Shown: piece by piece, positions 15,519 through 18,948 of the stretch
Layout of the letters: every line of letters begins with the position of its first letter
How positions within the stretch are numbered: position 1 is the stretch's first letter
NCBI GenBank assembly: GCA_004297305.1
Contig: SCTR01000005.1
Coordinates: forward strand, 62,001 to 126,000
Source: Actinomycetota bacterium
GTDB taxonomy: Bacteria; Actinomycetota; Actinomycetes; S36-B12; FW305-bin1
Length of the DNA stretch: 64,000 nt
Direction of reading: 5' to 3'
Translations under genes and position numbers: made by a program
The notes under the pieces: model-generated
What the model saw: only the letters and a program-made list of their open reading frames with translations
Database searches by the model: none
What the model was told of the DNA's origin: nothing

Positions 15519-15584
15519 AGACCGACGGCGCGGGCAATTCGCAGGTCCGCTAGACCGACGGCGCGGGCAATTCGCAGGTCTGGT
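15519..15584. repeat. Tandem 33-bp duplication, 29 bp identical
   Basis: AGACCGACGGCGCGGGCAAT... occurs at 15519 and again at 15552, identical over 29 bp (15519-15547 and 15552-15580). The second copy contains the last codons and stop of the CGSC-partner gene; the first lies just beyond it. It looks like a local duplication of that gene's 3' end. Confidence 0.85.
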
Positions 15585-16626
15585 CGACCAGGCGCTGGGT
15601 GACCGGCCGGTTGAAGTGGCTGCCCAGCGGACCCGCGCTCGGCATCAGGTAGGTGTAGTTCCCGCTGTCACCGGCGACCAGCAGCAGGATGTCAGCGGGC
15701 TCCTTGACGACGTTGAAGCGACTGCCGGGCGGGTACGTCGCCCCGGTGTAGTACGCGAGTTCCTCCGCGGTCCGCCAGGTGCGCGAGAACAGTTCCGCTT
15801 GGAGCTGTTCTCGCGTATAGCCGGCCTCCGCCATCGGCTGCGCGTGAGCCGGGTTCAGCACGACGGTCACGGTGCCCGCCTCGTGTTGGCTGTTGTTCGA
15901 GGCGGGACTGGCCAGCGCGGCGCTGACCGTCCGCAGCCAACGGTCGGCGAAGGGGAGGTCGGAATGGGTGGTGCCGATCGCCACCAGGACCGAGTGGGGT
16001 GCCTCGGCCCCGACCACGGTCACCGCGCTGTCCTCGGCAGCACAGCCGCGGGTGGTGTGCAACGGCGGGAACGGGCTGTGCTCCTCGGCTTCGGCGAGGC
16101 AGTAGCTGAACTTGCCAGGCTGTCCCATGATCGCCATGTCGCCGACCCCGGGCCGGGCGCCACCGAGGTTGAGCAGGCACAACCGCAGCGCCCGGCCGAT
16201 GGTGGCGTTGGCCCGGAAGCCGGCACCGAGCGCGCCGACGCCGCTGGCGATGGGGCCACAGTCGATCCGGGCCGGTCCGTTCACGATGATGAGCGGGGCC
16301 ACGTTGTGCGTGGTCGCCTGCAACTCGGTGAGGTCGAACTCCGGGCGGGTGACTGCCCGGACCGCGGCGATCACCACCGGAAAGTGCTCGGGCAGACAGC
16401 CGGCCATCACGGCGTTGATCGCGACCTTCTCGATGGTCGCGACGCCGAGCCGCGGCCCGATCTCACCGAGGACGAACTCGGCATCCAGGCCGCCGGCCTG
16501 GATGAGCTGCTCCACCCGCGCCGGCGTCGGTACGACGACCGGCAGGCCGTCGGTGAGCCCGTGCTCCTGCAAGGCGTCCTGGGCGGCAGCCTCGTCGGCT
16601 GCCTGCAGCTGTCGAGCCCCGCTCAC
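15550..16626 (-). CDS. Uncharacterised partner of the CGSC (UGSC-type) protein
   Basis: This is a 358-residue protein I cannot assign to a characterised enzyme. The N-terminus reads DALQEHGLTDGLPVVVPTP, then TIEKVAINAVMAGCLPEHFP, ATTHNVAPLIIVNGPARIDC, RANATIGRALRLCLLNLGG and MAIMGQPGKFSYCLAE; the second half has AGDSGNYTYLMPSAG near the end. Several Cys residues occur in these conserved-looking blocks, and there is no signal peptide or membrane helix. It starts at GTG 16626, overlapping the upstream CGSC gene as GTGA, so the two are surely co-translated and probably form one complex or pathway. An 80-codon open extension upstream is out-of-frame sequence of the CGSC gene. A reductase or lyase role is possible, but that is guesswork. 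Confidence 0.6.
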   Translation of the reverse strand: MSGARQLQAADEAAAQDALQEHGLTDGLPVVVPTPARVEQLIQAGGLDAEFVLGEIGPRLGVATIEKVAINAVMAGCLPEHFPVVIAAVRAVTRPEFDLTELQATTHNVAPLIIVNGPARIDCGPIASGVGALGAGFRANATIGRALRLCLLNLGGARPGVGDMAIMGQPGKFSYCLAEAEEHSPFPPLHTTRGCAAEDSAVTVVGAEAPHSVLVAIGTTHSDLPFADRWLRTVSAALASPASNNSQHEAGTVTVVLNPAHAQPMAEAGYTREQLQAELFSRTWRTAEELAYYTGATYPPGSRFNVVKEPADILLLVAGDSGNYTYLMPSAGPLGSHFNRPVTQRLVDQTCELPAPSV

Positions 16627-17156
16627 GCGGCCAGCCCACGCAGATCGGACAGAATCTCCGGGCTGAACTTGGTGGCGACCACGCGCAGGTTCTCCAGCCC
16701 GGTCCCTGCCAGCGGGTGCGGCAGGACGACCTGCGGCAATCCGGTGAGACCGAGCGAGAACGCGACCTGCGCCGCCAACGGATGAAACACCTCGGTGACC
16801 AGCAGGACGACGGGCAACCCGTAGCCGGCGATGGTGACCGCGTCGCGCGTGGACGCCGCCGTACACGATCCGCAGTGCCCGATCGCGACGACGAGCGCGT
16901 CGCAGTCACCGAAATGCTGCCCGATCTCGTCGGGGGTGAGCGACGTCCCGAGCCGGGGCTTGGTGTAGAGCACGAAGGACGCGTCCGGCTGGTGTGCGCC
17001 GATCGCGGCTTGGACCTCCTGCAGGAACGCGGTCGAGTCGGGGAACCCGTTCGCCAGCAACCCGATCCGGACTGCCCCGTCGCCGGCCAGTCGGAGCTGG
17101 TACTCGTGCGTCTCGTGCGGCGGCCCGGCGTCCGGATCCAGATACGTGATGGGCAT
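16623..17156 (-). CDS. UGSC-family (seleno)protein homologue, Cys form
   Basis: This is a 177-residue protein whose hallmark is IGHCGSCTAAS, with Cys95 and Cys98 forming CGSC. I recognise this as the position where the UGSC family carries selenocysteine (U-G-S-C). Here both codons are ordinary Cys (TGC, TGT), so it is the non-selenium form. A Rossmann-like alternation surrounds it: VRIGLLANGFPDST, DCDALVVAIGHCGSC, GYGLPVVLLVTEVF, LPQVVLPHPLAG. A redox-active dithiol is therefore likely; the substrate is unknown. The start was placed at ATG 17156 (MPITYLDPDAG) behind GAGGGA. It overlaps the 358-residue partner by GTGA. Confidence 0.65.
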   Translation of the reverse strand: MPITYLDPDAGPPHETHEYQLRLAGDGAVRIGLLANGFPDSTAFLQEVQAAIGAHQPDASFVLYTKPRLGTSLTPDEIGQHFGDCDALVVAIGHCGSCTAASTRDAVTIAGYGLPVVLLVTEVFHPLAAQVAFSLGLTGLPQVVLPHPLAGTGLENLRVVATKFSPEILSDLRGLAA

Positions 17157-17358
17157 GGACCCGTCCCTCACTTCCGCCCCCGACCGTGGACCAAGCGGAA
17201 CGCCCCCGATCAACCGGAACGCCCTGACAGGCGACAGCCTCAGGCGATCAGGACGCCATTGATCAATCGGAACGTAGCGTCGCGACCACCACCGGTCAAG
17301 GTGCCCGCGGGCAGCCCGGCGAGCGGCACCGGGCTATCCGTGTCCGGGATCGACAGGC

Positions 17359-18948
17359 CTAGTCGGCCAGGTCCACCGTGCGGCCGGAGTCGGCGCCGAT
17401 GGCGCCGCTGATGGCCGAGAGCACCTCGGCGGGCACCGCGGTGTCGACGGTGAGCGCGATGAGCGCCTGGCCGCCGGCCTCGTCACGACTGACCTGCATG
17501 CCGGCGATGTTGATGCCGGCGTCGCCCAGGACGCGCCCGGCGATGCCGACGACGCCCGGGCGGTCGACGTACCGGAAGAACGCCAGGTGCGCGCTGATCG
17601 GCACGTCCACGCCGAAACCGTCGACTTCGACGATCCGCTCCACGCCTCGCGGACCGGTCACCGTCCCCGCGACGGACACCGCCTGACCGTCGGTGAGCGT
17701 CAGCCGGACGCGTACCACGTTGCGGTAGTCCGGGCTCTCCGGGTCGGTCACCAGCGACACGCTCACGCCGCGCTCGGCCGCGATGACCGGGGCGTTGACG
17801 TAGGAGACCGGCTCGTCCACCAGCGCCGCGAAGACGCCCTTGGTGGCCGACAGTTCCAGGATCTTGACGTCCTGCGAGGCGATCTCGCCGCGAACCTCGA
17901 CCTCGATCCCGGCGACCGGCGCCGCCGCCAGCGCAGCCGCGATCTGGCCGAGCTTCTCCGACAGCGCCAGGCCCGGGCGGACGTCCTCGGCGATCGTGCC
18001 GCCGCGGACGTTGACCGCATCGGGAACCAGTTCGCCGGCCAGGGCCAGCCGTACCGAGCGGGCCACCGCGATCCCGGCCTTCTCCTGCGCCTCGTCGGTC
18101 GACGCACCCAGGTGCGGGGTGGCCACGACGTTGTCGAGGGTGAACAGCGGGGAGTCCGTGCACGGCTCCGTGGCGAACACGTCCAGCCCGGCACCGGCCA
18201 CCCGGCCGTCCCTGAGCGCCTCGTACAACGCGGTCTCGTCGACGATGCCACCGCGCGCGGCGTTGATCACCCGGACCGTCGGCTTCACCGTCTTCAACGC
18301 CTCGGCACCGATCAGGCCCACCGTCTCCGGCGTCTTCGGCAGGTGGACGGTGATGAAGTCGCTGTCGCGCAACAACTCCTCAAGGGGAACCATGCGTACG
18401 CCGATCTGCGCGGCGCGGGCCGGCTGCACGAACGGGTCGTAGGCGATCAGCGTGACACCGAACGCCGAGAGCCGCTGCGCGACCAGGATGCCGATCCGGC
18501 CCAGCCCGACGACGCCGACGACCTTGTCCGCGAGCTCGACCCCGGTGTACTTGGAACGCTTCCATTCCCCGTGGCGCAGCGCCTGATGCGCCGGGGAGAT
18601 GTTGCGAGCGCTGGCCAGCAGCAGTCCGACGGCCAGCTCGGCCGCGCTCACGATGTTCGACGTGGGCGCGTTGACGACCATCACGCCGGCCTGGGTGGCG
18701 GCCTTGACGTCGACGTTGTCCAGACCGACGCCGGCGCGGGCCACGACCTTCAGCTGCCGGGCCGCGGCGATGGCCTCGGCGTCCACCTTCGTCGCCGACC
18801 GCACCAGGATCGCGTCGACGTCGGCGATCGCCGCGAGCAGCGCCGTACGGTCAGCGCCGTCGCAGTAGCGAATCTCGAACTCCGGACCCAGCGCCGCCAC
18901 GGTGGCGCCGGAGAGCTCTTCGGCGATGAGGACGACAGGCTTGCTCAC
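17359..18948 (-). CDS. serA: D-3-phosphoglycerate dehydrogenase
   Basis: This is a 529-residue type I PGDH, the first step of serine synthesis (3-phosphoglycerate to phosphohydroxypyruvate, NAD-linked). The substrate/NAD domains include VVARAGVGLDNVDVKAAT, GVVGLGRIGILVAQRL (dinucleotide loop), RVINAARGGIVDETAL with the catalytic Arg, and VVATPHLGASTDEAQ with the catalytic His. The long C-terminal half holds the allosteric-substrate-binding insertion and an ACT domain (YVDRPGVVGIAGRVLGDAGI), as in mycobacterial SerA, so serine feedback is expected. GTG 18948 was chosen to match family N-termini (SKPVVLIAEELS). It lies downstream of ilvC and the phosphatase gene on the same strand. Confidence 0.94.
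   Translation of the reverse strand: MSKPVVLIAEELSGATVAALGPEFEIRYCDGADRTALLAAIADVDAILVRSATKVDAEAIAAARQLKVVARAGVGLDNVDVKAATQAGVMVVNAPTSNIVSAAELAVGLLLASARNISPAHQALRHGEWKRSKYTGVELADKVVGVVGLGRIGILVAQRLSAFGVTLIAYDPFVQPARAAQIGVRMVPLEELLRDSDFITVHLPKTPETVGLIGAEALKTVKPTVRVINAARGGIVDETALYEALRDGRVAGAGLDVFATEPCTDSPLFTLDNVVATPHLGASTDEAQEKAGIAVARSVRLALAGELVPDAVNVRGGTIAEDVRPGLALSEKLGQIAAALAAAPVAGIEVEVRGEIASQDVKILELSATKGVFAALVDEPVSYVNAPVIAAERGVSVSLVTDPESPDYRNVVRVRLTLTDGQAVSVAGTVTGPRGVERIVEVDGFGVDVPISAHLAFFRYVDRPGVVGIAGRVLGDAGINIAGMQVSRDEAGGQALIALTVDTAVPAEVLSAISGAIGADSGRTVDLAD

Follow-up and report, generated by a model that had tools for sequence, protein, structure and literature searches.

What does a small redox-type protein do when its gene is tightly coupled to that of a larger partner of unfamiliar sequence, in a setting of amino-acid biosynthesis genes? 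We examined this question for a pair of genes in a 64,000-nucleotide stretch of DNA from an Actinomycetota bacterium, hereafter the window. The two overlapping minus-strand open reading frames, of 177 and 358 residues with a GTGA overlap, are as a preliminary description had reported them (Table 1), and each gene is present once in the 2.68 Mb genome. On one side of the pair lies serA, upstream in the same orientation and ending at 17359; on the other side is leuA, on the opposite strand. Both names were read from translations. Scans for promoters, terminators and Rfam families around the two genes found nothing. Between serA and the UGSC gene we noted direct repeats, GACCAAGCGGAACGCCC and GATCAACCGGAACGCCC, at positions 17189-17224, which could be an operator or could have arisen by chance, together with a similar 14-mer at 17261-17274.

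Table 1. Coordinates of the gene pair and its main sequence features, as positions in the window.
Feature	Position	Strand	Remarks
UGSC-family protein, Cys form (CGSC), 177 aa	16623..17156	-	PF24696 8.2e-36, 124.2 bits; single copy in genome
Partner protein P, 358 aa, without Pfam/NCBIfam entry	15550..16626	-	Near-obligate UGSC companion, 27/27 genomes
GTGA stop/start overlap of UGSC and P genes	16623..16626	-	From sequence; translational coupling
CGSC motif Cys95-Gly-Ser-Cys98 (TGC GGA TCG TGT)	16863..16874	-	TGA (Sec) at first position in most relatives
Codons of Cys95 (TGC) and Cys98 (TGT)	16874-16872 and 16865-16863	-	Context IGHCGSCTAAS
P Asp26-Gly-Leu-Pro29	16540..16551	-	D, G and P at 100% weighted identity, 140 relatives
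P Arg145	16192..16194	-	100%, together with Gly144
P Glu179	16090..16092	-	100%
P Cys77	16396..16398	-	91% conserved, not invariant
P Cys176	16099..16101	-	87% conserved, not invariant

The smaller protein is of the UGSC type, in line with the family name given in the preliminary description, since it matched PF24696 with 124.2 bits (E = 8e-36) against a curated cut-off of 25. Because its 94.3 bits against the NCBI equivalog model NF041046, which is matched by all 48 aligned UGSC relatives, fall under the cut-off of 125, we regard it as a divergent family member; it is alike in sequence family, length and [U/C]GSC motif, and differs in carrying Cys for Sec and in that lower score. The [U/C]GxC motif is present as CGSC at residues 95-98, and the CxxC pattern is conserved in homologues, Cys95 (Sec or Cys) and Gly96 being invariant among the 48 aligned relatives and Cys98 retained in more than 90%. 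A 2008 selenoproteome survey of GOS data described a 'UGSC-containing protein' with a supposed thioredoxin-like fold and reported its fusion to an uncharacterised domain termed 'Unknown_1' (PMC2398784), which is perhaps the partner protein, P, considered below, and a 2026 review still lists UGSC among selenoproteins with largely uncharacterised roles (PMC13188914). In the open-access literature searched, the function, fold and obligate partner of UGSC are without description. With UGSC, neither phmmer nor a profile search against the PDB returned anything meaningful, and none of its occurrences in viral contigs was confirmed. Within the same order as the window organism, one genome (G046, L084:1522-1920) encodes a distant UGSC relative that adjoins P and has the motif CITC rather than CGSC.

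We then considered selenium. Among 150 scored UGSC matches, Sec commonly stands in the place of Cys95: 134 carry TGA and 16 were scored as Cys. Twelve of the 16 show CGSC, and the 16 include at least one Sec form scored in error (L024). In the window the codon is TGC. Furthermore, the window genome has no SelB over the cut-off and no tRNA-Sec, its two best tRNA-Sec-like matches being tRNA-Ser according to ARAGORN, while the Sec-carrying genomes tested gave tRNA-Sec matches of 64-73 bits; the putative redox centre is thus selenium-free, as had been proposed from its codons. In the UGSC tree the window protein belongs to a clade of ten with full support, seven members of which are Sec forms. Overall, about six changes between Sec and Cys are needed, and well-supported branches force four of these. 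Since its relatives mostly carry Sec and the genome lacks both tRNA-Sec and any SelB over the cut-off, Cys95 has most likely taken the place of Sec secondarily. A comparison of fold energy in the 47 nt after the motif codon between TGA and TGC/TGT forms, as a SECIS test, gave p = 0.08. One could go further and read the window copy as a decaying relic of the change from Sec to Cys that has no present function, given that its UGSC protein sits on a long branch (1.01) and that the family is patchy in the order, occurring in 3 of 60 genomes; we consider this highly improbable, however, in view of the full length and overlap of both reading frames, the intact CGSC motif and the full set of invariant residues in P, and the fact that Cys forms have appeared repeatedly and been retained.

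The pairing of UGSC and P proved to be general. A scan for P relatives yielded 80 loci, and among the 98 P genes scored in these and the window, P is followed by UGSC in 33, preceded by it in 27 and fused to it in one frame in 11, with 27 having no UGSC within 500 bp. Where a locus had no UGSC match (21 cases), UGSC was found elsewhere in the genome in all except one (20/21). In line with this, across 397 sampled actinobacterial genomes P was present in 27 of the 27 with UGSC over the cut-off (Fisher p = 7e-39), and it occurred without UGSC in three, two of these being weak fragments. Of 43 over-cut-off UGSC matches, 39 lie no more than 500 bp from P, and the two have the same copy number, which reaches five each, in all but two of the 27 genomes. 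The distance matrices of UGSC and P are also correlated (mirror-tree r = 0.75, permuted maximum 0.11). These genome sets are samples, and contigs of metagenome-assembled genomes may be chimeric. P is close to an obligate partner of UGSC, so the strict coupling suggested earlier is upheld, and a complex of the two is well supported, with a geometry that is for now predicted by modelling.

P itself matched no known enzyme, as had been noted: searches of Pfam, NCBIfam and PDB sequences, with phmmer and profiles included, assigned it to no family. No Pfam or NCBIfam family recurs among 64 aligned members, and public plasmid records call it a 'hypothetical protein' where it is annotated. The window P was modelled with a pLDDT of 93.7 and a pTM of 0.92, and in the PDB Foldseek ranked class I fumarases (E 9e-4) and cyclic-amide hydrolases highest, with E values of about 1e-3 to 1e-2 and TM of at most 0.3. 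We regard this as a confidently predicted fold without a convincing PDB match. Three candidate assignments were rejected: class I fumarase (PF05681; hhalign 0.1% and TM 0.28, despite the best Foldseek E), a homologue of GrdE/PrdA (hhalign 0.1% against GrdE) and a fold shared with viral proteins (no match with E under 0.001). Across 140 relatives, Asp26, Gly27, Pro29, Ala75, Gly76, Gly117, Gly144, Arg145 and Glu179 show 100% weighted identity. The preliminary description had stressed cysteine-bearing blocks in P; five cysteines are indeed present, but only Cys77 and Cys176 are conserved, neither of them invariantly, and the invariant charged residues are instead Asp26, Arg145 and Glu179. Judged by this conservation, the acid-arginine-acid set would fit a candidate site for a small charged substrate.

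P might then be an enzyme in its own right, a hydratase, hydrolase or lyase with a remote resemblance to class I fumarase or the cyclic-amide hydrolases, and UGSC would only protect or regulate it through thiol redox state. The Foldseek matches and the invariant Asp, Arg and Glu would suit such an arrangement, as would a P of 313 residues in Poribacteria that does not adjoin UGSC. We nevertheless think it distinctly unlikely, because the superposition on fumarase (TM 0.28, rmsd about 16 Å) is too weak for homology and hhalign of P against fumarase gives 0.1%, because Cys77 and Cys176 are not invariant, and because UGSC co-occurs with P even where the two are unlinked. As a separate observation, 13 Poribacteria loci (L037, L039, L048, L051, L054, L056-L058, L062, L067, L072, L073 and L078) encode a shorter P of 312-325 residues in shared surroundings with genes for PALP and POR-type 2-oxoacid oxidoreductase proteins; UGSC is not adjacent in these loci, and a Sec UGSC is found elsewhere in the genome for all except L073.

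A UGSC profile aligned to four GrdB sequences with an hhalign probability of 93.6 (E 2e-7), Sec falling on Sec, and with the six motif columns masked in UGSC the alignment to GrdB plus PrdB-like proteins kept its register (probability 86, E 5e-6); with the motif masked, the probability against the four GrdB alone falls to 55%, and to 45% when both sides are masked. As controls, 16 families all remained below 3% and a reversed profile gave 0.5%. Furthermore, the NCBI gly_red_sel_B model is matched by 21 of the 48 UGSC proteins (best 1.9e-6), several UGSC proteins match the GrdF, GrdH and PrdB models, and the GrdB-type proteins that we fetched carry UGSC, UGTA or UGTS at their Sec. The window protein scored 13.4 bits against TIGR01917, for which the cut-off is 602.2, and with 177 residues it does not have the full-length GrdB organisation of about 430. 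Sequence comparison thus provides good support for UGSC as a free-standing homologue of the Sec-bearing C-terminal catalytic domain of GrdB/PrdB, and the redox protein of the preliminary description can be refined to this more specific identity. A natural UGSC-P fusion (L043) was modelled with a pLDDT of 95.3 and a pTM of 0.92; in the model its UGSC half has alternating strands and helices in a Rossmann-like arrangement, with the Sec/Cys between strand 80-86 and helix 89-104. Its Foldseek matches were flavodoxin-like and other Rossmann or P-loop proteins, with no thioredoxin among the matches listed, and a thioredoxin fold for UGSC was rejected since both the fusion model and these matches disagree with it. 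Short PF07355 matches in UGSC genomes were also considered as Cys forms and set aside, as they are mostly PrdB-like proteins cut at the Sec TGA. At several loci (L095-L121), genomes with UGSC also hold many such short PrdB-like proteins, which correspond to the C-terminal half of PF07355, have a Sec-x-x-C motif and are read through an in-frame TGA; several carry a further C-terminal region, and GrdE/PrdA (PF09338) was not matched in most of the tested genomes with these proteins.

The genomic neighbourhood offers some indication of an electron donor. Thioredoxin-system genes accompany the pair as trxB-trxA-P-UGSC on an annotated plasmid of Arthrobacter sp. ERGS1:01, where trxA overlaps P, as P-UGSC-trxB on an annotated plasmid of Roseovarius sp. 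THAF8 and, from a sequence scan, as UGSC-P-trxB in Neorhizobium galegae, while trxB lies near the pair in Variovorax sp. SRS16 and in one further genome (G410); four of these five trxB-linked cases are Cys or Cys-like forms. Since such linkage was seen in none of the 80 loci of the main set, nor in the window, it is suggestive of the donor and not general. Other neighbours include TctC and tripartite tricarboxylate transporters, TRAP transporters, CoA-transferases, acyl-CoA dehydrogenases, short-chain dehydrogenases (SDR), PEP-mutase-like lyases and malonyl-CoA genes, among which no single recurrent neighbour dominates so as to name a pathway. The context of the relatives is the uptake and breakdown of small organic acids. 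Thus, although serA and leuA do flank the pair in the window, its placement inside amino-acid biosynthesis genes, to which attention had been drawn, is probably incidental, because relatives sit among transport and catabolic genes.

These neighbours also bear on whether UGSC-P could be a thiol or selenol peroxidase or a general disulfide reductase acting in oxidative stress, in which P would serve as scaffold or regulator. A UxxC motif is a usual feature of thiol oxidoreductases, a thioredoxin-like fold was guessed in the 2008 survey (PMC2398784), the title 'Peroxidase activity of selenoprotein GrdB' stands among the references of PMC3091704, and some operons include Trx or TrxB. Set against these points are the Rossmann-like UGSC model without thioredoxin among the Foldseek matches listed, neighbours that are transport and catabolism genes rather than stress genes, and invariant polar residues in P that resemble an active site, and we therefore find a stress-related role unlikely.

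Because UGSC is kin to the catalytic Sec domain of GrdB/PrdB, the pair is probably a two-part reductase, and we lean, by a little over an even chance, towards UGSC and P being the two parts of one enzyme, a two-component reductase of small organic molecules. P would occupy the place of GrdE/PrdA in the Stickland reductases and would use Asp26, Arg145 and Glu179 to bind a substrate that is probably an organic acid or amine of small size. Cys95 (Sec in most relatives), which opens the helix that follows a Rossmann strand, would attack the substrate, Cys98 would resolve the adduct to leave a disulfide, and thioredoxin and thioredoxin reductase would re-reduce the UGSC protein. In this reaction a small metabolite imported for catabolism would be reduced or reductively cleaved. 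The two-step chemistry of Cys95 and Cys98 is suggested by analogy, because UGSC is homologous to the PrdB/GrdB domain: in the mechanism proposed for D-proline reductase, PrdB uses its Sec to attack PrdA-bound proline at the alpha carbon, and one of its cysteines then resolves the selenoether, giving a mixed selenide-sulphide (PMC3091704). We infer the residue roles, reaction type and substrate in this scheme, as well as the electron donor in the window organism. Points that speak against the scheme are the lack of similarity between P and GrdE, the rarity of Trx linkage, the 27 P genes with no UGSC nearby, the lower masked probability against the four GrdB alone, and a Vibrio fusion with a degenerate motif that is described below.

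Compared with the glycine, sarcosine, betaine and D-proline reductases (GrdB/GrdF/GrdH/PrdB; PF07355), UGSC-P shares the homologous C-terminal Sec domain, aligned in register, and the two-subunit arrangement, and some of its operons parallel their Trx link. It differs in that UGSC has no counterpart of the N-terminal domain of GrdB and in that its second subunit is P instead of the pyruvoyl-forming GrdE/PrdA, P having 0.1% against GrdE and no invariant cysteine. As P has neither similarity to GrdE nor an invariant cysteine for a pyruvoyl group, substrate activation must differ. UGSC-P was also present without any PF07355 match in 16 of 30 genomes tested. A comparable departure is offered by the GrdB/GrdE-like proteins FarB/FarE, implicated in monofluoroacetate reduction, a reductive defluorination (PMC10838667): here GrdB-type Sec chemistry is recruited to another C-X bond, and FarE, like P, has no pyruvoyl-forming cysteines, although FarE is GrdE-like and P is not. 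More tentatively, and with somewhat less than even confidence, we suggest that UGSC-P may form a third branch of the selenoenzyme superfamily to which GrdB and PrdB belong. It would be a two-component Sec/thiol reductase of wide distribution, with aerobic bacteria and haloarchaea among its carriers; a substrate subunit of new fold would have replaced the pyruvoyl subunit, and the enzyme would cleave C-N or C-X bonds of metabolites.

What this analysis adds is the homology of UGSC to GrdB/PrdB, its near-obligate partner P, the secondary loss of Sec and the occurrence of trxB in some Cys-form operons. UGSC is an abundant selenoprotein family, for which the GrdB/PrdB link and the constant partner give a concrete enzyme hypothesis, and the Cys form in the window offers a practical starting point, since ordinary E. 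coli can produce it with no need for selenocysteine machinery.

Two unusual family members were also noted. The UGSC protein of the trxB-trxA-P-UGSC operon of Arthrobacter sp. ERGS1:01 (plasmid; L238:8982-9797) has a C-terminal NifU-like domain, with a PF01106 score of 27.2 bits just over the cut-off. On plasmid pVEu of Vibrio europaeus (L244:6323-8008), a UGSC-P fusion adjoining genes for aconitase X, DUF126 and enolase has a degenerate UGSC half, in which MGTS replaces [U/C]GSC and the PF24696 score of 24.9 bits lies just below the cut-off. This fusion is possibly catalytically dead or rewired and, given that it is without both motif residues, some members of the family would work differently or not at all.
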